A DNA stretch of 64,000 bases from Archangium primigenium (GTDB lineage: Bacteria; Myxococcota; Myxococcia; Myxococcales; Myxococcaceae), in the NCBI RefSeq assembly GCF_016904885.1, contig NZ_JADWYI010000001.1, positions 1,178,001 to 1,242,000 on the forward strand, written 5' to 3'. The notes under the pieces are model-generated. The model had not been told where the DNA came from, searched no databases, and saw only the letters and a list, made by a program, of their open reading frames with translations. Numbering within the stretch: position 1 is the first letter of the stretch; every line of letters begins with the position of its first letter. Positions 43,095 to 63,939 of the stretch are shown piece after piece. The translations under genes and the position numbers were made by a program.

Positions 43095-44423
43095 ATGAAG
43101 ACCCCCGCTTGGATGTTGATGCCCGCCCTGTTGGGCCTCGCCTGTGGTCAGCCCGCGCCGGAAGTGCCCGCCCCCGACGAGGTCGCGTCCGCGTCCGCCG
43201 CCGTGGCCTCGGCCGTCTTCTCGGGCACGGTGCTCGACAACCGCGGCGTCCCCGTGGCCAACGCACGCGTGACCATCAACAACATCCTGCGTCTCACGAA
43301 CAGCGCGGGCGCGTACTCCGTCTCCGTGGCGGAATCCAAGACAGGCTATGTGCTCGACATCCGCAAGGATGGGTATTCCCCGGTGAATGAGCTCAAGACC
43401 GAGGGGCTGCTCAATCAGAAGCATGTGCTCGCGCTCGGCTACACCGCGAAGTTCGATCCCCAGCGCGAGACGACCCTGCGCGACCCCACCCGGAACATCA
43501 CCGTGAAGATTCCCGTGGGCAGCCTGGTGACGGCCTCGGGCGTGGCCGCGACGGGCTCGGTGACCTTCACCATCGTCGGACATGGGCCGCGCGACATGCC
43601 GGGAGACTGGACGGCGCGCAACGCCGCCGGAACCCCGGTGGCGCTCGAGACCGTGGGCGCGGTGACGCTGGCGGCCACGGATGCCGCGGGCAACTCGTTG
43701 ACGCTGGCGGTGGGCAAGGTGCTGGACGTGCAGCTCCCGGTGCCGACGGAGCTGGGGGGGCGGATGCCCGCGTGCGTGCTCAACGCCACGTGCCGCACCA
43801 CGGTCTGGCGCTTCGAGCCGAAGACGGGCCAGTGGAGCGAGCCGGGTCAGGCGGTCGCGTCGGCGCAATTCAACACCACGGGCTCGTCCCTGAAGATCGT
43901 GGGCATCCGCAAGAGCACCATCGATCCGGCGGACGGTCTGGGCACGTGGAACGCGGACATCGAGCACCGCAACCCCGCGTGCACCATCATCGAGTTCGTC
44001 AACGTGCCGCTGGATTGCTACAACCCGCCGCCCGCCGCGAGCGTGGAGCCGGGCCTCGAGATGGGCTTCGAGCAGATGACGTCGGGCAACGTGCCCTTCG
44101 GCAAGAGCGCGACGGTGCGCTCCAGCGCGGCGTTCACCGTGCTCTACAACCTGCGCGGCAACACGCCGCTGGACCTGTCCGTGGAGTTCCCGCCGGGCGC
44201 GCCGGCCTGGTGCGCGGGCAACCTGTCGCTCACGTCCACGCCGGGGGCGATCGCGCCCTATCCCCAGTTCTGGAGCACGGGCGGGCGCACGCGCTTCAAC
44301 TCGGGCACGCTCAGCTTCGTGGGCTACCCGAAGAACTCGCTGGGCGCGAACATCACCTTCGCGGACGTGGCCACGGGTGACCATCCCTGCGGCTCGCACG
44401 TCTTCGTCCAGACGCACCCGTAG
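43095..44423 (+). CDS. Carboxypeptidase-regulatory-like lipoprotein
   Basis: A 442-residue predicted lipoprotein (LLGLAC). Residues about 40-100 form a carboxypeptidase-regulatory-like (CarboxypepD_reg) domain: FSGTVLDNRGVPVANARVTINN and YVLDIRKDGYSPV. The rest is predicted all-beta, with regions reminiscent of DUF-type beta domains (NITVKIPVGSLVT is common in ZU5-like domains), and eight or so Cys. Function unknown; probably cell-surface. AGGAGA precedes the ATG. Confidence 0.82.
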   Translation: MKTPAWMLMPALLGLACGQPAPEVPAPDEVASASAAVASAVFSGTVLDNRGVPVANARVTINNILRLTNSAGAYSVSVAESKTGYVLDIRKDGYSPVNELKTEGLLNQKHVLALGYTAKFDPQRETTLRDPTRNITVKIPVGSLVTASGVAATGSVTFTIVGHGPRDMPGDWTARNAAGTPVALETVGAVTLAATDAAGNSLTLAVGKVLDVQLPVPTELGGRMPACVLNATCRTTVWRFEPKTGQWSEPGQAVASAQFNTTGSSLKIVGIRKSTIDPADGLGTWNADIEHRNPACTIIEFVNVPLDCYNPPPAASVEPGLEMGFEQMTSGNVPFGKSATVRSSAAFTVLYNLRGNTPLDLSVEFPPGAPAWCAGNLSLTSTPGAIAPYPQFWSTGGRTRFNSGTLSFVGYPKNSLGANITFADVATGDHPCGSHVFVQTHP

Positions 44424-44445
44424 GCGGGGGGCTCGGTCAGGGGGG

Positions 44446-44474
44446 CGCGCGTCCGCCGATTGCCGGGACGCGCG
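44446..44474. terminator. GC hairpin after 43095-44423 gene
   Basis: A perfect 9-base stem, CGCGCGTCC with GGACGCGCG, and an 11-base loop, 22 bases after the stop. There is no T tract, so termination is only likely. Confidence 0.4.
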
Positions 44475-44577
44475 TGGCATGAGGAGGGCTTCCGACCTGT
44501 CGCTCTGACGGGTGCAACCTTCTCTCCCTGTCATTCGAGGGCGACGATTTGTACGATGTCGTGTCCCGAGGAGCGCT

Positions 44578-46245
44578 GTGTCCACCCGTCTTGATGGCTC
44601 GCGTACGCCCAGCGCCCAGCTGAGTTCCTTTCTGGGCGGCTGGTTTCTTCTTGTCCTGGTGCTGCAGTCGGCCTGCGCCACGGGGGCCGCCCATCGCGGT
44701 CGTCCCATGGCGACTCGTCACGATTCACCCGCACTTGCCTTGGTGCCAGCGGCGGAGCCCGGTCTCGAGTCCGCCGCCGTATATGTCGTGGACGTCATGG
44801 ATCCTGGCGCCGCCGCCACCCGGCCCCTGCCCATCTCCATCGCCGAGTTCCAGCAAGCCTTCCAGCGTCTGGCTCGGGACGTGCGGGTGGGCGCGGAGAC
44901 GCCACGTCAGGCCGCCCACGCATTGCTGAAGCTCATGCCCACGCGGTCAGACATTCCGCGCGTGGCCGTGACGGGCTACTGGACGCTGGAGCACCACCGA
45001 GGTGAAGCCCTCACCTGGATATCCGAGCGTCAGGAGGGTCCCGTTACCCTCACCCCACACGCCGAAGACGCCCTGAAAGAGAAGTACCTCACCTGGTGTG
45101 CGCGACGGGGCGGCGGCGACTGCTTGGGCTTGTTGGACGATGGGATTTCCCTCCGCGCGGATGACCGGCGCGCGTTCGCTCTGGCGCTGGCTTTGGGTTC
45201 GGTGCTCGATGAGACCCGCCAAGCCCTCCAGCGCGAACTGCTGGAGGTGCGAGCCCTCCTCGGCATGGTCATCTGGACGGTGGCCCTCTATTGCATGATG
45301 TGGGTGGTGCCCGAGCCAACGACCAAGGCCGTTGCCGCCGGGATGACGCTACTCCTGGTGGGTTACCTGGGCCTCACCACGGTGTACGGGTTGATGGATG
45401 GATGGGCCCGCATGGCGGATACGGCGCATCACGCCACCACCTTCGAGGAGCTGCGCGCGGCGGGTGATGAATTCGGTCAGGTGCTGGGCGAGGACGCCGC
45501 GCGGGCCATGATTCTCGCGGTGGCGGCGCTCAGTGGTCACACGCTGGGTCAGGTGTTCTCGCGGGTGAAGTCGCTTCCAGCCATCAACCTCGCGGGCACG
45601 CGGTTCGAAGCGCAGGGCGGCGCCGCTGCCTTGGGACGCCTGGAGGCCACGGAGGCGTCGCTCTCTTCGGCAGAGGCCCTGGCCAAGGCCGTAGCGGTTG
45701 TGGAGGGGGTGGCCACCTCCCCCCAGGGCCCCATGGCCGTGGTGATGTTCAAGAGGAAGATGGGCGGTGGATCGGAGACGGTTCCAGGCGGCCGGGGTGC
45801 CGAGACCGTCATCCGCCACCGAGGTGGCAACCGGCAGGTGACGCTCGGGGACGGTCAGCGCTGGCACTTGCCGCGCGGCAAGTCGGTCGTGGACATTCCC
45901 ACCGAGGACAAGGTGGGCGACATTCTCCAGGAGGCTGTCACCCAGGCGGCCCAGAAATGGAGACCCGACAAGCTCACTCCGAACGAAAAAGACGCCATCG
46001 CCCGGGCCATGAAGAAGGGCGAGGCCTGGCTGGCGCGGCTACTGGAGCGCGAGGCGCGGGGACGCTTCGTGGAAGACGAAGTCGGCAAGCAGTTCAAGCA
46101 TCTCTACAACTTCAGCCGAAACAAGGGCGTCGATGTGGAAGTCCCAGGGGGCTTCAAGTACGAGATTCTCACCGGCACGGACTCGAACCTGGCGCGGCAT
46201 GGGCGGCGCATGGCGGGCGAGTTCTTCCGGATGCTCACGTTCTGA
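44578..46245 (+). CDS. SitA-like lipoprotein polymorphic toxin
   Basis: A 555-residue lipoprotein (lipobox LQSAC, Cys33) matching in my reading the SitA5-type polymorphic toxins of myxobacteria. These are swarming-inhibition lipoproteins passed between cells by TraA/B outer-membrane exchange. The shared part (about 60-330) includes LESAAVYVVDVMDPGAA, PLPISIAEFQQAFQRLARD and two hydrophobic helices (ALLGMVIWTVALYCMMWV; MTLLLVGYLGLTTVYG). The variable C-terminal 110 residues, ending FKYEILTGTDSNLARHGRRM and EFFRMLTF, resemble nuclease-type toxin tips. GTG start with GAGGAG four bases upstream. Followed 11 bases later by an immunity candidate. Family identity is by recall, not search. Confidence 0.75.
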   Translation: MSTRLDGSRTPSAQLSSFLGGWFLLVLVLQSACATGAAHRGRPMATRHDSPALALVPAAEPGLESAAVYVVDVMDPGAAATRPLPISIAEFQQAFQRLARDVRVGAETPRQAAHALLKLMPTRSDIPRVAVTGYWTLEHHRGEALTWISERQEGPVTLTPHAEDALKEKYLTWCARRGGGDCLGLLDDGISLRADDRRAFALALALGSVLDETRQALQRELLEVRALLGMVIWTVALYCMMWVVPEPTTKAVAAGMTLLLVGYLGLTTVYGLMDGWARMADTAHHATTFEELRAAGDEFGQVLGEDAARAMILAVAALSGHTLGQVFSRVKSLPAINLAGTRFEAQGGAAALGRLEATEASLSSAEALAKAVAVVEGVATSPQGPMAVVMFKRKMGGGSETVPGGRGAETVIRHRGGNRQVTLGDGQRWHLPRGKSVVDIPTEDKVGDILQEAVTQAAQKWRPDKLTPNEKDAIARAMKKGEAWLARLLEREARGRFVEDEVGKQFKHLYNFSRNKGVDVEVPGGFKYEILTGTDSNLARHGRRMAGEFFRMLTF

Positions 46246-46256
46246 GGGACGGGCGG

Positions 46257-46883
46257 ATGCTCTACGACAAGGTCTTCTACGAGGACCAGGAAATTGAAAA
46301 CGAGCGACTGGAGCTGACCGACAAGGGAGCGCTCTACTTCCTCGGAGCCAATGTCACCTTCAAGAAGTGCACGCTGGTCCTCAAGGTCTCGGCCAGAAAT
46401 CTACTGATCGATGAAGGCACGCGGTTCATCGACTGCACCTTCGAGGTGAAACAGGAACTGAAGAACCACCAGCAGTGGGTGTTCGCCTCATTGAAGGGAT
46501 GTCGATTCAAGGGTCGCCTGTCGGGCTGTGACTTCGGGTACTGGCCTGATTACTCAGACAGGGCGGAGCACGGTTCCATTGAAGACTGCGACTTCACCGA
46601 GGCCCGGCTGGATGGGTGTCGATTTCACGGCGGCCATACCGACACCCTGCGCTTGCCCAGGTGGCCCTGCTTCACCTTCCTGGACCCCGTGGGTCGAGCC
46701 CTTGAACTCCGCGGCGTCAAATGGCCGGGAAGCTTTGGCGAGATCGTCGTGGACAACCTGCACACCCACCCGTCATCCACCCAGGCCTTGACCTACGACG
46801 CTTCGGCCGCGGCCAGGCGTTTCGAGACCACGCCGGAGGAACTTCGGGCCGTCATCGAGAAGTTCGACTGCATCGTCTCCTGA
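46257..46883 (+). CDS. Pentapeptide-like immunity protein candidate
   Basis: A 208-residue protein with repeated Cys/Phe five-residue turns (FKKCTL, FIDCTFE, LKGCRFKG, LSGCDFGY, IEDCDFTE, LDGCRFHG), the pattern of a pentapeptide-repeat beta-helix, followed by a short C-terminal helix. Its codon use appears less GC-rich than the neighbours. It starts 11 bases after the SitA-like toxin stop and runs in the same direction, so it probably neutralises that toxin, perhaps by mimicking nucleic acid as other pentapeptide proteins do. The function is inferred from position. Confidence 0.72.
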   Translation: MLYDKVFYEDQEIENERLELTDKGALYFLGANVTFKKCTLVLKVSARNLLIDEGTRFIDCTFEVKQELKNHQQWVFASLKGCRFKGRLSGCDFGYWPDYSDRAEHGSIEDCDFTEARLDGCRFHGGHTDTLRLPRWPCFTFLDPVGRALELRGVKWPGSFGEIVVDNLHTHPSSTQALTYDASAAARRFETTPEELRAVIEKFDCIVS

Positions 46884-46920
46884 CGGTTTTGGAGTGCTCG
46901 CGCGAGCTTCCCGCCGCCCT

Positions 46921-47673
46921 TCACCGCGCCGAGTAGCCCCCGTCGATCACGTGCACGCCGCCGGTGATGAAGGCGGCGCGCTCGGACAGCAGGAAGGCGG
47001 CGAACTCCGCCACCTCGTGGGGCTGGCCCAGGCGGCCCATGGGGTGCAGCGCGGCCAGGGCCTCGCGCTCCTCCGGCGGGCTGGCGAGGAGGTCCGGCGT
47101 GGCGATGAAGCCCGGCGCGAGGGCGTTCACCCGGATGCCCCGCGTCGCGTACTCGAGCGCCGCCGCGCGGGTGAGCCCCACGATGCCGTGCTTGGCCGCG
47201 ACGTAGGCGGGCTCGCCCTCCACGCCGACGATGCCCGCCGCCGACGTCATGTTGACGATGGCGCCCCCGCCCGAGGCCAGCAGCGCGGGCAGCTCGTGGC
47301 GCAGGCCGTGGAAGACGCCATCCAGGTTCGTGGCGAGCACCCGGCGCCACTCCTCCACGGAATACTCCCCGGTGTTCACGCCGCGCTCGCCCGTGAAGCC
47401 CGCGTTGTTCACGGCCAGGTGCAGCGCGCCGAAGTGGGCGCACGTGCGGGCCACGGCCTGCTCCATCGCGCGGGCGTCGGAGACATCCGCCGTCACCGAG
47501 AGGGTGCTGCCGCCCGTGGGGTCGTACCGCGCGGCCACCGCCTGGACGCGCTCGGCCCGGTTGTCCACGAGCGCCACACGCGCGCCGCCCGCGAGCAGTC
47601 GCCGCGCGATCGCCTCGCCCAGGCCCGAGCCGGCCCCCGTGACGAGCGCCACCCGGCCCGCGAAGTCGTTCAC
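46921..47673 (-). CDS. Short-chain dehydrogenase/reductase
   Basis: A 250-residue classical SDR. NAD(P) fingerprint VTGAGSGLGEAIA, NNAG stabilising motif (VNNAGFTG), catalytic Ser in VNMTSAAGIVG and Tyr/Lys in PAYVAAKHG, plus APGFIATP. Typical of 3-hydroxyacyl or glucose/gluconate-type dehydrogenases; substrate unknown. The GTG start overlaps the stop of the upstream SEC-C gene by four bases (GTGA). Confidence 0.93.
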   Translation of the reverse strand: MNDFAGRVALVTGAGSGLGEAIARRLLAGGARVALVDNRAERVQAVAARYDPTGGSTLSVTADVSDARAMEQAVARTCAHFGALHLAVNNAGFTGERGVNTGEYSVEEWRRVLATNLDGVFHGLRHELPALLASGGGAIVNMTSAAGIVGVEGEPAYVAAKHGIVGLTRAAALEYATRGIRVNALAPGFIATPDLLASPPEEREALAALHPMGRLGQPHEVAEFAAFLLSERAAFITGGVHVIDGGYSAR

Positions 47674-48953
47674 GGGGCCGGGGTCTGGGCGATGGGGTGC
47701 GCGCGCAGCCAGGCCTGGGCGCGCTGGATGCGCTCGACGGAGGCGGGCAGCTTCATGTCCGCGAGCAGCGCGCGGTAGGGCTCCAGGTCGTCCGCCGTCC
47801 ACTCGCTCTTGGCCTCGAGGTCCGCGCGCACCACCTGCTCCTCGGCCGAGCGGGCTTCGGGCTCGCCGCGTGCGGTGAGCACGGCGGCGAGCACCATGCG
47901 CACGGGCTCGGCCTGCACGGCCACGGCGGCGTCGGTGAAGAAGCCCCGGGTCGCCTCGTCGAGCGCCGGGTCCTGGGCCCGCGTGCGCAGGCGCTCGAGC
48001 AGGTGCGTCTGGAAGTCCGGGTCGTCCGCCAGCGCCCGCTTCATGGCGCCGAGGAAGCCCGACACGGCGGCGCTCCGGGCGGGGGCGTCCAGGGCGGGGT
48101 CCTTGAGCGCGGTGAGCGGCGCCCAGAGCACGCTGGTGAGCCACACCTGCTCCTCGGGGGCGAGCAGCGAGGGCGTGGTGGGCTGGCGCATGGCCGCCTC
48201 CACGCGCCCGGCGCGCTCCTTGGCCTCCTGGGCGATGCGCTGCGCGAGGCCCGGGTCGCTCTCCACGTACTTCACCAGCGCGTCCATGTCGCCCTCGCCC
48301 GCCTGGCGCAGGGCCTCGCGCGCCTCGTCGGACAGGGCGGCGTCCCCGGTGTCCACGCTCGCCGCGAGCGCCTGGCCGTGCCTGGCCCCCCACTCGCGGA
48401 ACTGGGCGCTGAACACCACGTCCAGCACCGGCCGGTCCTCGGGCCGCACCCGGCCGTCCTTGGGCGTGGAGGCCAGGAGCGCGCCGAGGCACAGCGCCTG
48501 ACGGTCCTCGGCGCTCAACCCCGCGGCGGTGGCGCGCGCGAGCAGGGTGGCGCGCAGCTTGTCCAGGAAGGCGCGCGTGCCCAGCTCGCGCACGGTGGAC
48601 AGCCGCAGCGCGTTGCGCGCCTGGGCGGGGTCGCGCTCCACGGCCTCCTCCATCCGGTCGAGCTGGCGCGACACGTGGGTATGGAAGAGCGCGGCGTCGA
48701 AGCGCAGGCCGGGCACGGGGCCCCACTGGGTGAGCAGGCCGCCCAGGTGCTCCAGCGTGCGCGACACGCCCTCCAGGTCCTCGCCGCGCAGGAGCGCCAT
48801 GGCCTTCTGGAGCTCGTCCGCCAGCGGGTGGCCCGCGCGGGGGGCGGGGGCCGCCGACTCGCGCAGCCGATCCTCCGCCGCGTGGCAGGCCTTGTACTTC
48901 TTTCCACTGCCACACGGGCAGGGCTCGTTGCGTCCGGGCTTCTGGCGGCTCAC
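47670..48953 (-). CDS. SEC-C motif helical protein
   Basis: A 427-residue protein opening with a SEC-C zinc knuckle (CPCGSGKKYKACH, Cys12/Cys14/Cys23/His24). The rest is all-helical, with repeated Ala/Leu helices and charged loops, and resembles no family I know. The GTG at 48953 has GAGGAGG five bases upstream, better spaced than the GTG at 48959. It is coupled to the SDR gene downstream. SEC-C motifs are used for docking to SecB or ribosomes. Confidence 0.82.
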   Translation of the reverse strand: MSRQKPGRNEPCPCGSGKKYKACHAAEDRLRESAAPAPRAGHPLADELQKAMALLRGEDLEGVSRTLEHLGGLLTQWGPVPGLRFDAALFHTHVSRQLDRMEEAVERDPAQARNALRLSTVRELGTRAFLDKLRATLLARATAAGLSAEDRQALCLGALLASTPKDGRVRPEDRPVLDVVFSAQFREWGARHGQALAASVDTGDAALSDEAREALRQAGEGDMDALVKYVESDPGLAQRIAQEAKERAGRVEAAMRQPTTPSLLAPEEQVWLTSVLWAPLTALKDPALDAPARSAAVSGFLGAMKRALADDPDFQTHLLERLRTRAQDPALDEATRGFFTDAAVAVQAEPVRMVLAAVLTARGEPEARSAEEQVVRADLEAKSEWTADDLEPYRALLADMKLPASVERIQRAQAWLRAHPIAQTPAP

Positions 48954-49023
48954 GTCCACCTCCTCGGGGCCCCTCTAGCACGGGGAGCATGCCCCCGGCC
49001 TGGAGGCGCGTTAGGTTGTGCCC

Positions 49024-49617
49024 ATGAAAAGACTTCTCGGTGTGATGTCGCTCCTCGCGGCCGTGGGCGTGGCCCAGGCCCAGTCGCCCAAGCCGCAAGC
49101 CGCGGCGCCCGTGCCCGCCGCCCCGGCCGCCGACGCCTCGGCCCCGAGCGCGGGCGGCCTCACCTGGACGGCGCCCAAGGACTGGGAGGCGCAGCCGGCG
49201 CGGCCCATGCGCGCGGCCACCTACCGCATCGCCCCGGCCAAGGGGGACACGGAGCCGGCGGAGCTGGCCATCTTCTACTTCGGCGCGGGCCAGGGCGGCG
49301 CGGTGGACGCCAACGTGAAGCGCTGGGTGGGCCAGTTCCAGAAGCCGGACGGCACGGCGGTGACGGACAAGGAGGTGCGCACCAAGCAGGAGAAGCTCAA
49401 CGGCCTGGCCGTCACCACCGTGGACGTGAAGGGCACCTACACCGGCGGCGGCCCGATGATGGGCCCCAGCTCGCCCAAGCCCAACGCGCGGCTCTTGGGC
49501 GCCATCGTCGAGGGCCCCGAGGGTCCGCTCTTCTTCAAGCTCACCGGCGGCGAGCGCACCGTGGGCGGCGCGGAGAAGACGTTCCGCAAGCTCGTGGAGT
49601 CGGTGAAGAAGCCGTAG
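49024..49617 (+). CDS. Exported protein, unknown function
   Basis: A 197-residue protein with a signal peptide ending at AQAQS and a Pro/Ala-rich linker. The domain from about 45 (LTWTAPKDWEAQPARPMRAATYRIA, then ELAIFYFGAGQGGAVDAN) is a beta-rich fold seen in some myxobacterial and planctomycete secreted proteins of no known function. Probably periplasmic. Single gene. Confidence 0.78.
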   Translation: MKRLLGVMSLLAAVGVAQAQSPKPQAAAPVPAAPAADASAPSAGGLTWTAPKDWEAQPARPMRAATYRIAPAKGDTEPAELAIFYFGAGQGGAVDANVKRWVGQFQKPDGTAVTDKEVRTKQEKLNGLAVTTVDVKGTYTGGGPMMGPSSPKPNARLLGAIVEGPEGPLFFKLTGGERTVGGAEKTFRKLVESVKKP

Positions 49618-49768
49618 CTGTCCGCCGGTGGACGGGTGGAGCGGGCGGCCGAGCGGGTCGTCCGGCTCCCCGTCCGGAGGCTCCCCGGAGGGTGATGGCC
49701 GCCGCGGCGCGCGGCAAGGAGATTGCTAAGGCATCAGCCCGCTGATGGCTTTCACACCGGGGGTCTCC

Positions 49769-50068
49769 ATGACGCACGACACGGCGCAGTTCCAGATCGA
49801 CACGATGCCCGACATCATCCTCTATCCTCGGGATACGGTGATGCGCGCGCTCGAGGTCATGCACCGCCATGGCGTGTTCCTTCTACCCGTGGTGGACGAG
49901 CGGCAGGGCGAAGTGCTGGGCCACGTGTCGGAGGAGGAGCTGGCGCGGCTGGGCCAGGCCTTCCCCCTGGTCCGCATGACTGAAATTCTGACTGCCCGCG
50001 CGGGGCTCGTTTCGGAAGGAAATGCCGAACACGTGGAGCGGGCGCGGCCCGAGGTCTGGCTGCACTAG
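49769..50068 (+). CDS. Small CBS-domain-like protein
   Basis: A 99-residue protein in which TVMRALEVMHRHGVFLLPVVDERQGEVLGHVSEEELARLG looks like a single CBS motif (shown in pieces: MHRHGVFLLPVVDE, VLGHVSEEEL). CBS domains bind adenosyl nucleotides and normally work in pairs, so it may dimerise. The ATG at 49769 has a GGGGG run about seven bases upstream; 49745 is an alternative. Function unknown. Confidence 0.7.
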   Translation: MTHDTAQFQIDTMPDIILYPRDTVMRALEVMHRHGVFLLPVVDERQGEVLGHVSEEELARLGQAFPLVRMTEILTARAGLVSEGNAEHVERARPEVWLH

Positions 50069-50247
50069 GAATGTGACGGCGAGTCCGGGCCGGGAGAGCG
50101 GGGGGCTCTCTGGTGAACACCGTGTCACCGCCAAATGCCGTCTTCCCGACGGGCTGCCCTCCAGGACACGGCCAGAAGCGGCGGGGCTTGCCAGGGTGTA
50201 AAGGGTCGCTCCCACGCCAACCGGTGGGGGCAGGGAGGTGGTGGGAC

Positions 50248-50934
50248 ATGAAGGCTGTGGCGATCATCCTCGCGGCGGGCGAGGCCAGACACATGGGGCA
50301 TTCCAAGGCACTCGTCGAGCACGAGGGGGGCAAGAGCTTCCTGCAGTCGCTGGCGTCCACGTTCGGCAAGGCGGGCTGCGCGGTGCTGGCGGTGCTGGGC
50401 AAGGACGCGGAGGCGGTGCGCGAGCAGCACCCGGCGGTGCACCTCGTGGAGAACGAGCGCTGGAGCGAGGGGCAGTTCGGCTCGGTGAAGGTGGGCCTGG
50501 ACGCGGCGCTCGAGGAGGGCGCGGACGTGGTGCTGCTGCAGCCGGTGGACATGCCCGCGGTGCGCGCCAGCACGCTCAAGTCCCTGCTCAAGTCCTTTGG
50601 CGAGTCCGTGGAGGGCCTGCGTCCGGAGTTCGAGGGGGCCCTGGGCTACCCGGTGCTCCTGTCGCGCGCGGCGGCCGAGCGGCTGCGCGAGAGCACCTCC
50701 GGAGACAAGCAGCTGGAGGCGGTGCTCCGGGGCCTGTCCCCGCGCCGCATCGCGGTGAAGGATCCAGGCGTCGTGGTGAACATCAACACGCCGGAGACGT
50801 ACGAGCGGCTGTTCGGCTCGGCGCCCAAGCTCGCGCCGCCGCCCAAGCGCCGGGGCAAGAAGGCCGAGGCCGGCACGGCGGCACCCGCCCCGGGCTCCGG
50901 GGAACCAGCGACGGACGGCCTGTCGGGCTCGTGA
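50248..50934 (+). CDS. MocA-like nucleotidyltransferase
   Basis: A 228-residue NTP-transferase with the MobA/MocA signature IILAAGEARHMGHSKALV, a metal-site Asp in LLQPVDMPAV and a GYPVLLSR segment. MocA attaches CMP to molybdopterin cofactor; other members act on different small molecules, and no molybdenum genes are close. The C terminus has a Lys/Pro/Ala-rich tail of about 35 residues. Strong ribosome site GGGAGG before the ATG. Confidence 0.85.
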   Translation: MKAVAIILAAGEARHMGHSKALVEHEGGKSFLQSLASTFGKAGCAVLAVLGKDAEAVREQHPAVHLVENERWSEGQFGSVKVGLDAALEEGADVVLLQPVDMPAVRASTLKSLLKSFGESVEGLRPEFEGALGYPVLLSRAAAERLRESTSGDKQLEAVLRGLSPRRIAVKDPGVVVNINTPETYERLFGSAPKLAPPPKRRGKKAEAGTAAPAPGSGEPATDGLSGS

Positions 50935-50955
50935 GGTGAGCCCGGCCGGGGCCGC

Positions 50956-51714
50956 TCAGGGCCGGGCGACAACAGCCCGCGCCCGGACGGCAACGGGCGC
51001 GGGCACCAGCCGCAGCTCCAGCCGGGGCGTGGCGGCCGGCTCGAGTCCCCGCGGTTTGAGGGGCCCATAGCCGAGGGCCACCAGCCGCTCCGGCGGCAAC
51101 TTCGACGTGCGCTCGAGCTGGTGCGCCACCCGCACCGCCCGGGCCGTGGACAGCTCCAGCGCCAGGTCCGAGGGCGAGGTGTCCGGGTAGGAGGCCACCT
51201 CCACCAGGTGCCCCTCCACGTTGAGCGCCGCGGCCAGCCGCTGCAGCAGGGCCTCGCCCTGGGGCGAGAGCGCCGTGTCGCGCGGGGCGAAGAGCAGGGG
51301 ATCCATCAGCCCCACCCGCAGCTCGCCCTCGGCCTCTTCCAGGTACACCGTGCCGCGCTCCCGCTCCTCCTTGAGGGTCGTCTCCAGCGCCAGCCGCGCC
51401 GCGTCCCGCCGCGCCCCGAGCTCGCCCACGCGCCGGGCGGGGGGCGCGCGCCGCGAGGCCTGGGCGCGCTGCTGCTCCTGCTCCAACTGGCGCACCCGCC
51501 GGGCGAGGCCCTCGCGCTCCAGTTGCAGCTCGGCCACCCGGGCCTCGGACTCGGCCGCCTCGCGCTCGAGCTGCTCGGTGCGGGTGGCCAGGGCGGACAG
51601 GGAGCGCGTGGCCCCCCAGGCCCCGGCCGTCACCAGGCCCACCGTCCCCAGGACGAGCCACCCCGTCCATCGGGGGCTCCGGCGTTCCTCGAGCTCGTCG
51701 GCTGTGATGTCCAT
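50956..51714 (-). CDS. OmpA-like coiled-coil membrane protein
   Basis: A 252-residue protein with one N-terminal transmembrane helix (about 18-38), a long coiled coil (about 45-115, with heptads such as LEREAAESEARVAELQLEREG) and a C-terminal OmpA/MotB-type domain (LSPQGEALLQRLAAALN, STARAVRVAHQLE, LVALGYGPLKP). It probably anchors the inner membrane to peptidoglycan. The upstream region 51715-52096 carries a structured element with a terminator pointing into this gene. Confidence 0.85.
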   Translation of the reverse strand: MDITADELEERRSPRWTGWLVLGTVGLVTAGAWGATRSLSALATRTEQLEREAAESEARVAELQLEREGLARRVRQLEQEQQRAQASRRAPPARRVGELGARRDAARLALETTLKEERERGTVYLEEAEGELRVGLMDPLLFAPRDTALSPQGEALLQRLAAALNVEGHLVEVASYPDTSPSDLALELSTARAVRVAHQLERTSKLPPERLVALGYGPLKPRGLEPAATPRLELRLVPAPVAVRARAVVARP

Positions 51715-51836
51715 GGGCCTCCACCCGTCGATTGTTGGAGCGCCGAATGTATTCGGGCCCTTGGGGTGGGTCTCAAGGAGAAGTGGGTGGGCGTGTCGCT
51801 CAGTCGATGGGAGCGGCGCCGGGGGCGTTGGCCAGC

Positions 51837-51882
51837 AAAAAGTAAAGGCGGCGCGTCCGGGGAGGGGACCGGGCGCGCCGCC
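51837..51882 (-). terminator. Intrinsic terminator, minus strand
   Basis: On the minus strand a 14-pair hairpin (outer GGCGGCGCG/CGCGCCGCC, inner CCGG/CCGG, one G-T pair, 8-base loop) is followed by TTTACTTTTT. No comparable T tract is present on the plus strand. It ends leftward transcripts arriving from 51883 and beyond. Confidence 0.8.
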
Positions 51883-51976
51883 TCCACCGCCCGGGGGATC
51901 CCGGACGGACGTGTGGCGGTGTGTCTGAAGAACGCCCCGGTTGCCTTCCCAGGGGACCGCCGGGGCATCCGCGAGT
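51837..51976 (-). ncRNA. Candidate small RNA with intrinsic terminator
   Basis: Read on the minus strand, three stem-loops occur in a row. First, GATGCCCCGG-type stem (51960-51968 with 51932-51940, nine pairs, one G-U). Second, CACCGCC with GGCGGTG (51915-51921 with 51885-51891). Third, a 14-pair GC stem at 51847-51882 followed by TTTACTTTTT. On the minus strand GTGACG lies about 18 bases before GATAGA, a weak promoter-like pair; the likely 5' end is near 51976. It does not continue into the OmpA-like gene, whose ATG is 123 bases beyond the T tract. It fits no known RNA family by eye. Confidence 0.5.
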
Positions 51977-52096
51977 GTTTCTATCGGACGGGTCTGACAT
52001 GCCTCGTCACGCCGGGCCGGCCTTGGCCCGTCCCCCGGCCATGGGGCACACTGGGCGTTCGCCCACGGCGGCAGACGGCGAGAGGGACGCGGAACG

Positions 52097-52951
52097 ATGG
52101 CGATTCGATGCGTGGTGCTGGATTTCGATGGGACGTTCACGGACGTGGCGGCCGAGGGGGCGCCCTTCGTGAAGCACTTCCGCGGACGCCTGTCCGAGGT
52201 GCTGGGCCGTGACGTGGGGGAGGCGGGCTGGGACGAGGTGGAGCGCGAGGTGTCCTCCAGCAACGAGGAGCACGGGTGGGAGGTGGGCGGGCGCACGGTG
52301 GCTCCGGCCACGGCCGACCCCTTCCTCTTGTCCAACTTCGTGGCGCGGCGGCTGTGCGACCGGCTGGGGGTGCTGCCGGACAAGGCCGAGCGCGTGGCGC
52401 TGCTGGACACGCTCTACCGCGAGGCCTACGCCCAGGTGGCCGTGGCCTTCAAGCCCGAGGCGAAGGAGGTGCTGGAGGCGCTCCTGGAGACGGGGCTGCC
52501 GGTGACGGTGGTGACCAACGCCCACACGGACACGGTGGAGGCCAAGCTCACCAAGCTCGCGCCGAGGGGCCGCGAGCGCCTGCGGGTGTCGGGCAACGCG
52601 CGCAAGTTCCTCATCGAGCCGCCCACCCAGCCTGACGCGCGCTTCGACGCCCTGCCCGAGACGGCGCGCGTGGACTCGCTCGTGCGCCCCATCTACCTGC
52701 GCCGGGGCCGCTACTACGACGCCCTGTCCCACATCTGGCGGGAGACGGGCACCACGCCGGAGCAGACGCTGGTGGCCGGCGACATCTACGAGCTGGACCT
52801 GGCCATGCCCGCGGCGCTCGGGGCCCGGGTGCAGTACGTCATGCGCCCCAACGCGCTGGAGTACGAGCGCCGGGGCATCGCGGCGCTCGGGGCCCAGGGC
52901 GGCATGGACCCGAGCCTGCGCGCCATCCTCCCGCGGCTGAGGGACGCATGA
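52097..52951 (+). CDS. HAD-superfamily hydrolase
   Basis: A 284-residue HAD hydrolase: motif I DFDGTFTD, motif II region VVTNAHTDT, motif IV VAGDIYELDL. An insertion between motifs forms the helical cap. Likely a phosphatase on small substrates. It overlaps the downstream gene by four bases (ATGA, 52948-52951), so the two are coupled. Confidence 0.86.
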   Translation: MAIRCVVLDFDGTFTDVAAEGAPFVKHFRGRLSEVLGRDVGEAGWDEVEREVSSSNEEHGWEVGGRTVAPATADPFLLSNFVARRLCDRLGVLPDKAERVALLDTLYREAYAQVAVAFKPEAKEVLEALLETGLPVTVVTNAHTDTVEAKLTKLAPRGRERLRVSGNARKFLIEPPTQPDARFDALPETARVDSLVRPIYLRRGRYYDALSHIWRETGTTPEQTLVAGDIYELDLAMPAALGARVQYVMRPNALEYERRGIAALGAQGGMDPSLRAILPRLRDA

Positions 52952-53898
52952 GACCGGGGCGGCGCCTCGCCGGACTGGGGCTCGCGCTCGGGCTCGGGCT
53001 CCTGCCCGGGTGCAGGACGGCCGCGGGCTTCCGCGAGCCGGTGGCCCGCTTCAAGGAGGGCCACACCACGGCCAGCGTCGCCCTGGGCACCTACTACGCC
53101 GAGCTCAACCGCTTCGAGCGGGACCTGTACCTCGACGAGCGCCTGTATGACCCGGGGCTGGAGGTGCTGGCCTCGGAGGCGGATGGTCAGGCCACGCCCC
53201 TGCTCGGCAAGCTCTTCTCGCCCGAGTCCATCCAGGCGCGCATGGAGGCCATCGCGCTGTTGGGCACCTACGCCGAGCGGCTGGCCACGCTGGCGGGCGC
53301 GGAGGACGCGGGCAAGCTGCCCGAGGGCGCCCAGGCCCTGGGCACGCGCCTGGGCACGCTGGGCACGCAGTTGCAGACGCTGTCGGGCAAGGGGGACGCC
53401 ACCGCGGCGCGCTACGTGGCGCCGGTGACGACGCTGGTGGGCGTGGTGACGTCGCTCTTCCTGGAGGAGCGGCAGGGCCAGGCGCTGCAGGAGGGCATCG
53501 AGCAGGGCGCCCCCCAGGTGACGGCCATCCTGGACCTGTTGGAGGCGGACCTGACGGAGGTGCTCGGGCCGCAGCGGCTCACGGGCGCCAAGCAGGCGGT
53601 GGCCTCGCGGGTGCTCTACTACAACCTGCGGCGCGACACGCTGTCGCTGGCCGAGCGCCGCGCGGTGCTCGAGGACATCCGCCAGGCGGCCACGCACTAC
53701 GAGGCCCTGGTGGTGGCCAACCCCGTGGAGCTGGCGCGCGCCCTGCGCGACGCGCACGCGGCCCTGGTGCGCTTCGCCCGCGCCGAGCGGCGCCTGGAGT
53801 CCTTCGAGGAGCTGTCCGGCGCCATGCAGGCCTTCCAGGGCCGGGTGGATGTCGCCTCCGCCGCCGTCCAGGCCCTGCGGCCTCCCCCCGCCCCGTAG
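52948..53898 (+). CDS. Helical lipoprotein, unknown function
   Basis: A 316-residue lipoprotein (LLPGC). The mature part is almost all-helical, Ala/Leu/Gln-rich, with no recognised family. ATGA overlap with the HAD gene upstream. The next gene 46 bases downstream encodes a related helical protein, so the three may act together. Confidence 0.78.
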   Translation: MRPGRRLAGLGLALGLGLLPGCRTAAGFREPVARFKEGHTTASVALGTYYAELNRFERDLYLDERLYDPGLEVLASEADGQATPLLGKLFSPESIQARMEAIALLGTYAERLATLAGAEDAGKLPEGAQALGTRLGTLGTQLQTLSGKGDATAARYVAPVTTLVGVVTSLFLEERQGQALQEGIEQGAPQVTAILDLLEADLTEVLGPQRLTGAKQAVASRVLYYNLRRDTLSLAERRAVLEDIRQAATHYEALVVANPVELARALRDAHAALVRFARAERRLESFEELSGAMQAFQGRVDVASAAVQALRPPPAP

Positions 53899-53943
53899 TC
53901 TCCGGAGTCAGTCCCCAGAGTGAGTCTAGAGGGAGTGAGCCCC

Positions 53944-54270
53944 ATGCACTTCGACACCCAGACGTTGACCCAGCTCATCGAGCGCTGTTTCGACCTGTCG
54001 ATGAGCGGCGCGGTGCCCGCCCAGGCGCGCGCCGAGTACCTCGCCCAGGGCAAGCGGCTGCGCGCGCAGCTCATGCGGCTGCTCGGGGCGCGCTTCGCGG
54101 CGGACTCGGCCGAATTCCACCAGGCGAGCGAGGCCCTGACGGAGACGAACGCGGCGCTCGAGCGCTCCGCGAAGGACCTGGAGTCGGCGACCCTGGCCGT
54201 CAAGCGCCTGGGGGAACTCGCCGGCTACCTGGACAAGGCCCTGGCGGTGGCGGGCAAGGTCTTGTCCTGA
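53944..54270 (+). CDS. Small helical protein, unknown function
   Basis: A 108-residue all-helical protein: TLTQLIERCFDLS, RLRAQLMRLLGARFAADS, and a coiled-coil-like FHQASEALTETNAALERSAKDLE. No family recognised. GGGAG lies about eight bases before the ATG at 53944; GTG 53920 is less likely. Probably in the operon with the two preceding genes. Confidence 0.68.
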   Translation: MHFDTQTLTQLIERCFDLSMSGAVPAQARAEYLAQGKRLRAQLMRLLGARFAADSAEFHQASEALTETNAALERSAKDLESATLAVKRLGELAGYLDKALAVAGKVLS

Positions 54271-54305
54271 CGGCCTTGTCCTGACACCGCGGTCCTGAAA
54301 CGCGG

Positions 54306-54340
54306 CGGCCCCGCGGTCCCTGGGAAGGGGCGCGGGGCCG
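54306..54340. terminator. Hairpin between convergent genes
   Basis: A perfect ten-base stem, CGGCCCCGCG with CGCGGGGCCG, around a 15-base loop. It lies between the plus-strand helical gene and the minus-strand atpA, so it could end both. There is no T tract. Confidence 0.5.
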
Positions 54341-54363
54341 GGCGGTACGGTGGGAGGCGGGGA

Positions 54364-57544
<3,181 letters not shown>

Positions 57545-57674
57545 GGCTGGGAAAGGACGGGCGGGGCCCGTGGGGCCACCATAGCCTGTCCCTGACGCGC
57601 TGGAAATACCGGACTTGCCGGGAAGTGGACGGAAACCGACAGCCCGGCCTCTTCCCGTGGTGCCGCTCGGACGC

Positions 57675-58220
57675 TCAGTGCTGCTTGAGTTCGCGGCGCA
57701 TCTGCTCGAGCTGGGTGCGCAGCGTCCCGTCGTACAGGGTGCTGCCCACCTGGGCGGCCACGCCGCCGAGCACGCTCGGGTCCACGCGCGGCTCGAGCAC
57801 CACGTTGCGCTGGGTGAGGGCGCGCAGGCTCTCGGAGATCTTCTGCACCGCGTCCAGCGTGAGGGGCACGGCGCTGGTCACGTGGCCCCGCACCCGGCCG
57901 GCCTGGGCATCCGCCATGTCGCGGTAGAGGCGGGCGATGTCCGGCAGGTAGCCGAGCCGGTTGCGATCCACCAGCAGGCGCAGGGTGTTGGCGAGCACGG
58001 GCTCCATCTGGCCGCTGGCCTGGATGAGTCCCTCGACCACGCGGGTGCGCTGGGAGGCGGTGAAGGCCGGGTTGAGCAGCACGTTGGAGAGGTCGCGGTT
58101 GTCGGCCAGCAGGCTGGCGAAGGTCGACAGCTGCTCGGACACGGCGTCGGCACGCCCCGCCTCGGTGGCGACGTCGAGAAGAGCGCGGGCGTAGCGGCGG
58201 GCAATAGACACGTTCACCAT
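57675..58220 (-). CDS. atpH: F1 ATP synthase delta subunit
   Basis: Delta subunit (OSCP homologue), 181 residues. Recognised from SIARRYARALLDVA at the start, VLLNPAFTASQRTRVVEGL in the middle and the C-terminal QVGSTLYDGTLRTQLEQMR. It links the F1 head to the peripheral stalk. First gene of the small atp group, divergent from hsp70. Confidence 0.95.
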   Translation of the reverse strand: MVNVSIARRYARALLDVATEAGRADAVSEQLSTFASLLADNRDLSNVLLNPAFTASQRTRVVEGLIQASGQMEPVLANTLRLLVDRNRLGYLPDIARLYRDMADAQAGRVRGHVTSAVPLTLDAVQKISESLRALTQRNVVLEPRVDPSVLGGVAAQVGSTLYDGTLRTQLEQMRRELKQH

Positions 58221-58263
58221 GGCGCGGCGCGCTTAGCACGCCCCCCGGGTCCAGGGCAACGAT

Positions 58264-58308
58264 GGGTGAATGACCCACCCCGGGTGTGCCATAAGTTCTC
58301 TTGCACAC
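58264..58308. promoter_or_regulatory. Inverted repeats in the atpH-hsp70 divergent region
   Basis: Two candidate operators. TGGGT (58263-58267) with ACCCA (58273-58277), and GTGTGC (58284-58289) with GCACAC (58303-58308) separated by 13 bases. Neither matches the CIRCE element of HrcA. They could control either divergent gene. Confidence 0.4.
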
Positions 58309-58379
58309 GCGGGTTGGGGTGGGGGTGAAACACCTCGCCCGGAGCCCGGCATCCCCGGCGTATCATGGACTCTCGGACC

Positions 58380-60200
58380 ATGGGCGACCCCGTCATCGGC
58401 ATCGATCTGGGCACCACCAACAGCGCGGTGGGCACCGTGGAGGGCGGCCAGCCGCGCCTCATTCCATCCCGCGCGGGAGGCCGCCTCACGCCTTCCGTGG
58501 TGGGGCTCACCCCGCGCACCGCCGAGCGGGTCGTGGGCACCCAGGCCCAGGCGCTCGCCGAGGAGCACCCGGACTGCGTGGTGTGGGCCACCAAGCGCTT
58601 CATCGGGCGGCGCTTCACCCCGGAGCTCGTCCAGGCGGCGCGTGCCCTGGTGCCCTATCCCCTGGTGGGCGGCACCACGGGGGACGTGCGCGTGAAGCTC
58701 TCCGGGCGCACCGTGCCCGTCACCCAGGTGGCCGCCATGGTGCTCGGCGAGCTCAAGCTGGACGCCGAGGCGTACTTCGGCCAGGGCGTGAAGAAGTGCG
58801 TCATCACCGTGCCCGCCAACTTCGATGACGGCCAGCGTCAGGCCACGCGCGAGGCGGCGGCCATCGCCGGCCTGGAGGTGCTGCGCCTCATCAACGAGCC
58901 CACCGCCGCGGCGCTCGCCTACGGCCTGTCCCGGGGCTTCGAGGGCCATGCGCTCGTGTTCGACCTGGGCGGCGGCACCTTCGACGTCACCGTGCTGGAG
59001 GTCACCGACGGCGTCTACGAGGTGAAGGCCACCGGGGGAGACCCCGCGCTGGGCGGCGAGGACTTCGACCTGCGCATCGTGGAGTGGCTGCTCGCCCAGG
59101 TGGAGGAGCCCTACCGCGAGCAGGTGCACCGCGACGCCACCTCCATGCACAAGCTCAAGGTGGCCGCCGAGCAGGCCAAGCGCGAGCTGTCCGAGTACGA
59201 GGAGACGCTCATCTCGGTGGGCGGGCTCGGGGACCACTCGCAGCCCACGCGCAAGCACACGGGGCTGGAGACGGCCCTCACGCGCGGCTTCTTCGAGCAG
59301 CTGTGCGAGGCGCTCAGCAAGCGCTGCCTCGCGGTGTGCGAAGCGGTGATGCGCGATGCGCGCATGGATCCGGGCCAGGTGGACGCGGTGCTGCTGGTGG
59401 GCGGCATGACGCGCGTGCCCTTCATCCGCCAGCTGGTGTCGGACTTCTTCGGCAAGGCGCCCTCCACCGAGGTCAACCCCGACGAGGCCGTGGCCCTGGG
59501 CGCCGCCATCCACGCCCAGGAACTCACGAGCCAGGCCGGCGCCGCGCTGCTCCTGGACGTGGTGAGCAACTCCCTGGGTGTGGGCGTGCTCGGGGGCAAG
59601 GTGCGCCGGCTCATCGCCCGCAACCGCTCGGTGCCGGTGGTGGCCCGCGAGCTGTTCCACCCGGGCAGCCACGGCCAGAAGGAGGCGCGCATCCCCATCT
59701 ACCAGGGCGAGAGCGAGCTGCAGGACGAGAACCGCAAGCTCGGCGAGCTCGTGCTGCGCAACCTCCAGGCGGGCTCCCGCGGCGAGACGCCCCTGGAGGT
59801 GACGTTCGAGTTGTCCAACGAGGGCATGCTCGCGGTGCGCGCCGTGGACCTGCAGACGGGCCTGAGCGAGCAGGTGCGCGTGGAGGCCCGCCCCCACCTG
59901 CCCGCGCTGGAGGCGGACCGGCTCGTCAAGGAGCAGGCCGCCTACTCCCAGAAGCAGTCCCAGGTGGACGCGCGCAAGTCCGAGGACAAGTTCCGCAAGC
60001 TGCTCGAGCGCGGCGAGAAGCTCGCCCGGCTCCTGCAGCGCTCGGCCGAGGAGAACCCCGGCGCGCAGTCCCAGGAGGCCGTGGCCCACGTGCGCTCCCT
60101 GCTGGACTCGGGCCGCGGCGCGCTCGAGTCGCAGGACGCCGCCCAGTGCGCCGAGGTGGCGCGGGAGCTCAACGCGTTGCTCGCGGGTCGTCCGGCGTAG
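58380..60200 (+). CDS. Hsp70 family chaperone (DnaK-like)
   Basis: A 606-residue Hsp70 homologue. The nucleotide domain shows [34 protein letters not shown], the [12 protein letters not shown] motif and [15 protein letters not shown]; the substrate domain shows [17 protein letters not shown], which is longer-diverged than in DnaK (DVTPLSLGIET). The lid is shortened and ends without the EEVD-type tail, so it is an Hsp70 paralogue, not the main DnaK. ATG codons at 58365 and 58380 are possible. Several Hsp70 paralogues occur in myxobacteria, one of which (SglK) is needed for social motility; no link is shown here. Confidence 0.9.
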
Positions 60201-60207
60201 ATTTCTC

Positions 60208-60232
60208 CCGAGGCGCCTCGGTTTTCCGAGGC
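60208..60232 (+). terminator. Overlapping palindromes after hsp70
   Basis: CCGAGGCGCCTCGG at 60208-60221 is a perfect 14-base palindrome followed by TTTT; alternatively GCCTCGG-TTTT-CCGAGGC (60215-60232) forms a seven-pair hairpin. Eight bases after the stop. Probable terminator. Confidence 0.5.
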
Positions 60233-60349
60233 TCCGGGGGCCCCGGCGCGCAAGACAACCTCGCGGAATCCCTGTCCGTGCGAGGGTTGGCACAGCCATG
60301 GCAATGCCCGCCGCGCAGCGGAGTCGATCCGGAGCCGAGGAGCCAGGAC

Positions 60350-62446
60350 ATGCACGGTGGCAACAGATGGATGTGGGGCGTGGTCTCGTTGGTGGGCGTC
60401 GTGGGGTGCTCGTCGCGGGAGTCCGACGGCGTCCCCGAGAACCAGCCCGTGCAGATGCAGGCGCGGCTGGAGGCCTTCGAGGGGTGCGAGGCGCTCGAGT
60501 CCTATATCGAGGATGCCGCCGTGCTCGACATGCGCGCGTCCCTGGAGCGCAGCAAGCCCTCCTATTGGGGAGGGGGCATCGACCGGGGCGGCACGGCGCC
60601 GCCGGCCTCGCCCTCGCCGGACAGTGGCGCGGGGACGGGGGCGGGTGGGGACGCTCCGAGCGACCACACCGGCACCAACAACCAGGTGGAGGGCGTGGAC
60701 GAGGCGGACTTCGTGAAGACCGACGGCACGCGCCTGTTCGTCCTCGCCGGCCAGAAGCTCTACCTGCACCGCTCGTGGCCCGCCGCGTCGCTGCGCGCCG
60801 AGTCCTCGCTGGTGCTGGAGGGCTGGCCGCGGCAGATGTTCCTGCACGGCGACCGGGTGGTGGTCTTCTCCTCGGTGTACGCGCCCGCGCCGGGGCAGGG
60901 GCAGGGCAAGGGTGACGCCCCCGACATCGGGTGCTCCCCCTTTGGCCCCTGTGGGTATGGCGGCGCGCCGCGCACCAAGGTGACGACGGTGGACGTGTCC
61001 CAGTTGGCCTCGCCCCAGGTGGTGGGCGAGCTGTTCCTGCCCGGCGTTTACGACGACGCGCGGCTCGCGGGGGGCGCGGCGCGTGTGGTGCTGCGCGAGT
61101 CGTTCGAGTGGCCCTCGGGCGTGCGCTGGTACCCGGAGTCCAATGACGGCTCGCTCTGGAAGGACACGAAGCGGATGGAGGCGGCGCTCGACGCGCTGAT
61201 GGTGGAGAACGAGCGCCTCATCCGCGCGCGCTCCCTGTCCGACTGGCTCCAGCAGCCTGGCCGGCGCCGGGCCGACGGCACCCTGGAGACGTGGACGCGC
61301 GACTGCCAGGGCTTCCACCGCACCAACGCGCCCACGCGCCTGGGCTTCGTCACCGTGGCCTCGCTGGACCTGGACGCGCCCGTGGTCCAGGCCCCGGGCC
61401 TCACCACGCTGGTGGCCGACACGAACCTCGTCTACGCCACCGCCACGTCGCTCTACCTGAGCGCGCGCCACTGGTGGTGGTGGGAGGAGGCGGGCCAGTC
61501 GGACTACTCGTACGTGCACAAACTGGAGCTCACCCAGCCGCACCGCGCCCACTACGTGGCCAGCGCCACCGTGGAGGGCCAGCCGCTCAACCAGTTCAGC
61601 TTCGATGAGCACGAGGGCGTGCTGCGCGTGGCCACCACGCTCACGCGCCGGGTGAAGGACCCCGCGTCGCGCTGGGGCCGCACGGAGACGTCCAGCCGCG
61701 TGTCCACCTACGGCCAGCAGGGCGATCGGCTGGCGCTGCTGGGCCAGAGCGCGGAGCTGGCCGAGGGCGAGCGCATCTTCAGCGCGCGCTTCCTGGGCAC
61801 CAAGGGCTACGTGGTGACGTTCCGCCAGACGGATCCGCTCTTCACCTTCGACCTGTCGGACCCCACGAACCCGCACAAGGTGGGCGAACTCAAGGTGCCG
61901 GGCTTCTCCACGTACCTGCACCCGCTGGGCGACACGCACCTCTTGGCCATCGGGGAGCACCGCGCGGAGGACGGCAACTGGAGCTCGCGCTCGCTCAAGC
62001 TCACGCTCTTCGACGTGAGCGACCTGGCCCATCCGCGCGAGGCCTTCACCCAGCAGGTGGGCTCGCTCTCCAGCTACAGCGAGGCGCTCTACGACCACAA
62101 GGCCTTCACCTGGTTCGCGGCCAAGGGACTGCTCGCCATTCCCTTCGTGGACTGGAACTGGACGAACGGGACGGGCGACTACTGGTCCAACTTCACGAGC
62201 GAGCTGCGCGTCTTCCGGGTGAACCCCGCCACCGGCTTCGTGCCCGTGGGCGCGCTGAGCATGAAGGACCTGTACCAGACGGTCAGCACCCCGCAGTGGA
62301 GCTACTCCTACGTGCCCTATGTGAGACGCAGCGTGATGGCGGATGACTACGTGTACGCCATCACCGATGCCGGGGTGCGCGTGTCGCGAGTGGAGCAGCT
62401 CACCGAGCCCCTGGCGACCGTGCGCTTCGGCGCGCCGACGCCGTAG
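60350..62446 (+). CDS. Beta-propeller-domain lipoprotein (PF09826-like)
   Basis: A 698-residue lipoprotein (GVVGC at Cys20). The TNNQVEGVDEADFVKTDG motif is the hallmark of the bacterial beta-propeller family PF09826, followed by LFVLAGQKLYLH and long propeller blades, ending DYVYAITDAGVRVSRVE. A Ser/Gly-rich linker lies between the signal and the fold. Members are secreted proteins of unknown function in archaea and bacteria. GGAGCC-type ribosome site (AGGAG) before the ATG at 60350. Confidence 0.88.
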   Translation: MHGGNRWMWGVVSLVGVVGCSSRESDGVPENQPVQMQARLEAFEGCEALESYIEDAAVLDMRASLERSKPSYWGGGIDRGGTAPPASPSPDSGAGTGAGGDAPSDHTGTNNQVEGVDEADFVKTDGTRLFVLAGQKLYLHRSWPAASLRAESSLVLEGWPRQMFLHGDRVVVFSSVYAPAPGQGQGKGDAPDIGCSPFGPCGYGGAPRTKVTTVDVSQLASPQVVGELFLPGVYDDARLAGGAARVVLRESFEWPSGVRWYPESNDGSLWKDTKRMEAALDALMVENERLIRARSLSDWLQQPGRRRADGTLETWTRDCQGFHRTNAPTRLGFVTVASLDLDAPVVQAPGLTTLVADTNLVYATATSLYLSARHWWWWEEAGQSDYSYVHKLELTQPHRAHYVASATVEGQPLNQFSFDEHEGVLRVATTLTRRVKDPASRWGRTETSSRVSTYGQQGDRLALLGQSAELAEGERIFSARFLGTKGYVVTFRQTDPLFTFDLSDPTNPHKVGELKVPGFSTYLHPLGDTHLLAIGEHRAEDGNWSSRSLKLTLFDVSDLAHPREAFTQQVGSLSSYSEALYDHKAFTWFAAKGLLAIPFVDWNWTNGTGDYWSNFTSELRVFRVNPATGFVPVGALSMKDLYQTVSTPQWSYSYVPYVRRSVMADDYVYAITDAGVRVSRVEQLTEPLATVRFGAPTP

Positions 62447-62529
62447 CGCGTCAGGCGGCGGGGGGGCCGGGACGTCCGCGTGAGGAGACTCGCGCGGCGT
62501 CCGCGCGAACGCGCTATAGGCACCCCGCC

Positions 62530-63924: not shown

Positions 63925-63939
63925 GCCGCTGGGGGGCCC

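Follow-up and report, generated by a model that had tools for sequence, protein, structure and literature searches.

Small RNAs linked to the enterobacterial SOS response (istR and others) have ties to LexA and in many cases to the mRNAs of toxins, and staphylococcal small RNAs of the UCCC-loop type carry C-rich loops that block ribosome-binding sites. In Myxococcus and Cystobacter, the small RNA Pxr is encoded under a sigma-54 promoter, with nla19 on one side and an NADH dehydrogenase gene on the other, and Hfq was not detected in these bacteria according to the same report (PMC5568312). The PafBC motif of M. tuberculosis is TGTCAG-10N-TA-3N-T (PMC8151990). The PafBC regulator responds to single-stranded DNA, which activates it, and works at the -26 position through sigma adaptation (PMC10693628). 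For WYL domains, a fold like that of Sm/Hfq proteins has been described (PMC6789036). M. xanthus also possesses a pafBC operon, and a sequence of the PafBC-binding type was found before 24 of 51 genes in that organism (PMC9705874).

The locus described here lies in a window of 64,000 nucleotides, the whole stretch of DNA analysed, from Archangium primigenium. Like the enterobacterial RNAs, the RNA predicted here would belong to a DNA-damage programme, but it is flanked by HAD-like and OmpA-like genes, whereas theirs are LexA-linked and frequently involve toxin mRNAs. With the staphylococcal RNAs it shares, by description, an exposed C-rich loop complementary to the Shine-Dalgarno sequence. It resembles Pxr in being a predicted intergenic small RNA of a myxobacterium, in its size class of about 100 nt, in its several stem-loops and in having a host in which Hfq was not detected (PMC5568312), but it is predicted to lie beside a HAD gene behind a PafBC-type promoter and not at nla19/NADH dehydrogenase behind sigma-54. 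Identity with Pxr, as the latter is described, is rejected on the basis of the locus, with its HAD and OmpA-like neighbors, and of the promoter. The mycobacterial PafBC (RecA-NDp) promoters provide the closest likeness at the DNA level, namely TGTCAG-10N-TA, directional, before DNA-repair genes, in a host with a PafB/PafC-like pair (PMC8151990, PMC6789036, PMC10693628). The differences are that the motif here precedes a predicted non-coding RNA, that the form searched was TGTCAGACCC, and that the last T of the -10 element is missing in the window. The features of the locus are as follows.

51999-51978, minus strand: promoter of the PafBC (RecA-independent) type by exact motif match, TGTCAG (51999-51994), 10 nt, TAGAAA (51983-51978)
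51971-51837, minus strand: predicted small RNA of ~135 nt, from the promoter and terminator positions and covariance-model matches in 11 of 145 genomes
51966-51934 (about), minus strand: hairpin P1 in the fold, with the conserved segment CCCUGGGA, invariant over 11 sequences
51907-51888 (about), minus strand: hairpin P3 in the fold, its sequence varying between species
51883-51846, minus strand: terminator stem-loop of 14 pairs (13 G-C) with a loop of 8, whose unpaired segment CCCCUCC is invariant
51845-51836, minus strand: T-rich tract 3' of the terminator stem, from the dedicated terminator scan
51776-51748, minus strand: TTGAGA-17-AATACA, between the terminator and the start codon of the OmpA-like gene and probably this gene's own promoter
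50956-51714, minus strand: OmpA-like gene (PF00691), downstream of the terminator and a neighbor in 4 of 11 carrier genomes
52097-52951, plus strand: HAD-like hydrolase gene (PF00702), the divergent neighbor in all 11 carrier genomes

Terminator and folding of the minus-strand element

A preliminary description of the window had reported three successive minus-strand hairpins, the last a 14-pair GC stem followed by TTACTTTTT, with the right-hand neighbor on the plus strand. The fold and the scan described below confirmed the hairpins, and the neighbor proved to be the HAD gene at 52097-52951 (+). The stem at 51883-51846 runs directly into TTACTTTTT and has the form of an intrinsic (Rho-independent) terminator. 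A dedicated scan required a stem of 10 or more pairs, in which one mismatch was allowed, a loop of 3-12 nt and, in the 10 positions that follow, no fewer than 7 T. The hairpin at 51883-51846 was the sole site to pass on either strand of the 64 kb, and 20 dinucleotide shuffles of the window yielded a total of 1 site. A generic terminator scan of 44001-64000 did not return 51883-51846; it gave 5 other sites versus 5.2 expected by chance. Two other readings of the hairpin were discarded. It is not the terminator of a plus-strand gene, since the plus-strand hairpin has no T run after it, and it is not a repeat element, the sole second BLAST match in the host's own genome being a 33-base GC-rich stretch without a T tract.

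The 140 nt minus-strand sequence folded with -78.4 kcal/mol, corresponding to z = -3.6 against 200 dinucleotide shuffles, 2 of which folded as well. In a second computation, the whole RNA gave z = -3.7 and the window RNA without the terminator z = -1.3 (7 of 100 shuffles as good); the folding signal is therefore mostly that of the terminator, P1 and P3 alone being no better than chance. The 11 homologues folded without their terminators gave similarly weak values (z of -0.1 to -2.5). The opposite strand of the window also folds well (z = -2.1), and because the opposite-strand z was the more extreme in 5 of the 11 homologues, fold strength gives no pointer to the minus strand. By eye, a GC-rich hairpin resembling P3 lies at a similar place in the minimum-energy folds of most relatives, but not in that of G001.

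From the promoter position, the RNA would start near 51971, ~7 nt past the -10 element, and it would end near 51837. The aligned RNAs of the relatives are longer, at 157-164 nt, and may form an additional 5' hairpin that is absent from the window copy.

A PafBC-type promoter motif at the locus and in related genomes

The promoter class is what is new beyond the preliminary description. All 11 homologous loci proved to have TGTCAG-N10-TA, in the form of TGTCAGACCC and, six bases on, TA; this is the spacing seen in the mycobacterial PafBC motif. Relative to the PafBC-dependent form TGTC(A/G)G-10N-TA-3N-T, the window has TAGAAA and thus lacks the final T of TANNNT. The seven loci of the genera labelled g8 and g4 contain two copies of TGTCAGACCC, the upstream copy in G062 being followed by CA instead of TA. 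In these Archangium-type loci (L151-L155, L159 and L160), the promoter motif is a tandem duplicate, the copies 54-87 nt apart, and by eye most have a long inverted repeat between the two copies that abuts the second.

A search for TGTCAGACCC-N6-TANA returned 63 sites in 59 genomes, against 0 for the reversed control; the same words at six wrong spacings together gave 9 sites, and their reversed control 1. Ten of the 63 sites are at this locus and 53 elsewhere. The first ORFs downstream of these 53 were picked by script, which found 52, and 50 of them were scanned. The motif was associated with repair-type genes as a class, these making up 16 of the 50: recA (5), smc (2, one in the host genome), class II ribonucleotide reductase (2), and one each of recJ, radA, rmuC, recX (above the Pfam but below the NCBIfam cut-off), uvrA, recN and a DEAD-box helicase that we take to be Lhr-like, the last three ORFs being incomplete at the end of the stretch and scoring below the NCBIfam cut-off. 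The other 34 were non-repair genes or had no Pfam match; 13 lacked a match at 1e-5, and the remaining 21 were mixed, with kelch proteins, peptidases, peptide deformylase, SurE, UPF0102, AbiEi-like proteins, a Cas6 and a GidA-family gene among them.

TGTCAGACCC-N6-TANA stands before recA, uvrA, radA, recJ, recX, recN or smc at L094, L124, L131, L139, L142, L090, L097, L109, L111, L122, L104 and L079. At L093:1501-2170 (genome G047), the motif lies 26 nt before the gene for Cas6, which acts in CRISPR RNA processing; damage-linked CRISPR expression there would be unusual. At L101:1501-1820 (G001), inspection by eye revealed, after the motif, a strong ribosome-binding site, then a frame of 18 codons made up of Ile/Pro/Ser repeats and lastly a GC-rich hairpin, possibly a damage-induced micro-peptide gene. 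Two sites alike, L126 and L128 (in G030 and G010), have GC-rich repeats and no Pfam-matched ORF after the motif, and possibly represent another non-coding RNA or short gene.

The host genome (9.49 Mb) has just two copies of the strict motif, one at this locus and one ahead of smc, and none before recA. A looser form occurs 5 times, and for the bare 10-mer there is no enrichment (8 occurrences versus 6 reversed); consequently, a regulon in the host's own genome is not visible with this motif. Among the matches listed in a search of the open-access literature for TGTCAGACCC as a text string, none was by its title concerned with such a promoter.

Four WYL matches were found in the host genome, two of them in adjacent frames near G000:C1:8376185-8377377. 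The first of these proteins has PafBC (6sj9) as its best solved-structure match (phmmer, E 4.3e-23). The two adjacent proteins are weakly alike (E 1e-7), and neither matched the NCBIfam models. The host thus appears to encode a PafB/PafC-like pair.

The best-surviving alternative accepts the small RNA but holds that it is constitutive or otherwise regulated, the TGTCAGACCC promoter type being unlinked here to PafBC or DNA damage. The many sites before non-repair genes, such as those for kelch-repeat proteins, peptide deformylase and the GidA-family member, are in keeping with it, as are the lack of the strict motif at the host recA and the fact that PafBC binding at the motif is a prediction. 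The presence of recA after 5 of the 53 sites, together with several other repair genes, and a spacing the same as that of the mycobacterial motif argue for the PafBC assignment and make a promoter without this link doubtful.

Conservation of the unit and its neighboring genes

A covariance model was built from 9 sequences and used in two genome searches with strict filters that lose weak matches. At the family level, full-length matches were obtained in 11 of 96 genomes; a further match outside the clade, in G067, comprised the terminator part only. At the order level, 12 of 145 genomes matched and 11 were accepted, the twelfth (G129) being a false match to what seems to be the end of a protein gene, with its terminator. 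The 11 carriers are confined to three genera, with 4 of 4 genomes in g1, 6 of 6 in g8 and 1 of 1 in g4. HAD loci from named genomes were also considered. Of 62 returned, 42 were examined, and 2 of these 42 had less than 700 nt upstream. TGTCAGAC preceded the HAD gene in 3 of them, all Archangium loci; in the other loci examined, among them those of Myxococcus, Corallococcus and Hyalangium, the element was not found next to HAD. With the covariance model, 24 of the 42 loci gave no convincing match (best full-length score, 10.3 bits). On these results the element is a clade-restricted candidate for a small-RNA gene, and a well-supported one.

Mean identity to the window copy was 77% for the promoter and 88% for the terminator, and the RNA body of the window copy was ~56% identical to the others, not above its flanks (57% and 58%). 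Within the body, P1 retains an invariant GGGA. In the terminator, none of the 11 sequences departs from the others in the loop CCCCUCC or in 11 of the 14 pairs of the stem, and the loop was computed as unpaired in every one; such invariance is odd for a terminator. The linker CACNUCC is likewise invariant, yet only partly unpaired (mean 0.33-0.63). CCCCUCC is common in the GC-rich 64 kb, with 29 occurrences on both strands. The preliminary description had looked to compensatory changes for support, and these were present but weak. Three pairs change on both sides, and column shuffles reach 3 in 138 of 500 cases; the two-sided changes do not exceed shuffles because the terminator hardly varies. 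In the same alignment, 92.1% of cells were paired versus 38-51% with slid partners, but shuffles reached 91.3%.

No reading frame common to all 11 homologous sequences was found, and this bears on a second alternative, a short mRNA that encodes a damage-induced small protein and ends at the terminator. The window does contain a frame of 112 aa (51968-51630) that crosses the terminator and another of 66 aa, and 5 of the 10 relatives have a frame of 15-23 aa in which the peptide RSPGKA of the 112 aa frame recurs. However, the other 5 relatives lack this frame: in L018 and G059 it is broken by single-base indels that leave the hairpins intact, and the three congeners differ. Start codons shift among the frame carriers, and no Pfam family matches the product of 66 aa. 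We therefore regard a small-protein gene as unlikely.

A third possibility is an RNA that acts by binding protein and not by base pairing, as a 6S-like RNA, a CsrA sponge or a ligand of Hfq-like WYL domains. In its favor are the failure to find Hfq in the genome, the Sm/Hfq-like fold of WYL domains (PMC6789036) and the invariant GGGA of P1. Against it, no Rfam 15 family matched the window at gathering score, and the long central bulge of 6S-like RNAs is absent, by eye, from the folds. It is hardly likely on this evidence. Both this alternative and that of a differently regulated small RNA share the RNA gene and are compatible with it.

The HAD gene is 75.5-84.0% identical in the 10 relatives carrying the element, and the promoter-to-terminator unit is kept beside it in 11 genomes, whether the OmpA-like gene is there or not. 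Transcription of the element would be directed away from HAD, its constant neighbor. On the far side of the HAD gene, a plus-strand ORF of 316 aa (52948-53895) overlaps its end and has no Pfam match. No OmpA-like match was found within ~1.5 kb on either side in 7 of the 11 carrier loci, where the element is intact, and in G030 and G006 the first ORFs on the OmpA side are unlike OmpA. TTGAGA-17-AATACA before the OmpA-like gene is conserved in three congeners (G001, G002 and G003).

The preliminary description had also offered an attenuating leader of the OmpA-like gene, in which a transcript from the damage promoter would enter the gene once the terminator is overcome; the gene does lie on the same strand, starts ~122 nt past the T tract and was found in 4 of the 11 carriers, but its own conserved promoter-like site after the terminator and the 7 carrier loci without an OmpA-like match leave this reading unsupported and highly improbable. 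As transcription is expected to stop at a strong intrinsic terminator, the RNA would be short and not reach the OmpA-like gene.

Predicted role of the RNA in the damage response

The other proposal of the preliminary description, an independent RNA of about 140 nt, fits the promoter motif at 51999-51978, the start that it predicts near 51971 and the retention of the unit in 11 genomes. With its own promoter (by motif only), its own terminator and no conserved frame, the element has the makeup of an intergenic trans-acting small RNA. Probably, then, an independent gene for a small RNA occupies 51971-51837 (minus) and is preceded by a promoter of the PafBC type. Since this promoter type is the one found before DNA-repair genes in relatives, the RNA is probably made upon DNA damage, and the combination of a PafBC-type motif, its repair-gene association and a PafBC-like pair therefore places the RNA, by prediction, in the LexA-independent damage response. 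The terminator, the promoter motif, the conservation, the synteny and the PafBC-like pair can be read from the sequence; expression and damage induction are predictions.

In the mechanism we envisage, PafBC activated by single-stranded DNA would turn on the promoter whose motif is present here, so that induction by DNA damage would be independent of LexA/RecA. The RNA would then extend through P1 and P3 and be ended by the terminator before the OmpA-like gene, as the sequence is laid out. It would most probably act in trans by base pairing, chiefly through the exposed CCCCUCC loop, which would bind purine-rich ribosome-binding sites and so lower translation of target mRNAs during DNA repair, perhaps in partnership with the invariant, partly unpaired linker CACNUCC. 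This last step, the covering of ribosome-binding sites by the loop, is put forward tentatively, both as a mode of action and as to its targets. Hfq was not found in the host genome (0 of 1; the control was positive in 5 of 14), in agreement with PMC5568312, and any RNA-mRNA pairing would therefore be Hfq-independent. Searches of the open-access literature on PafBC with small RNAs, on small RNAs of Archangium or Cystobacter and on SOS or DNA-damage small RNAs gave no report of this RNA among the matches listed; those listed for SOS or DNA-damage small RNAs did not, judging by title and opening of the abstract, concern bacteria.

It is conceivable, if somewhat speculative, that the PafBC damage response of the Archangium type has an RNA arm, consisting of a PafBC-driven small RNA that works without Hfq and turns off translation of a set of mRNAs, its invariant CCCCUCC loop masking their ribosome-binding sites, with the terminator thus the effector. 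If true, the PafBC damage regulon would itself include a small RNA, in bacteria of which Pxr is the small RNA best known. Of greater weight, perhaps, is a side finding. The word TGTCAGACCC-N6-TA-N-A serves as a compact and nearly noise-free marker of a promoter class that stands before recA and other repair genes in the order, and it would help in reading the LexA-independent regulon of the order from sequence.
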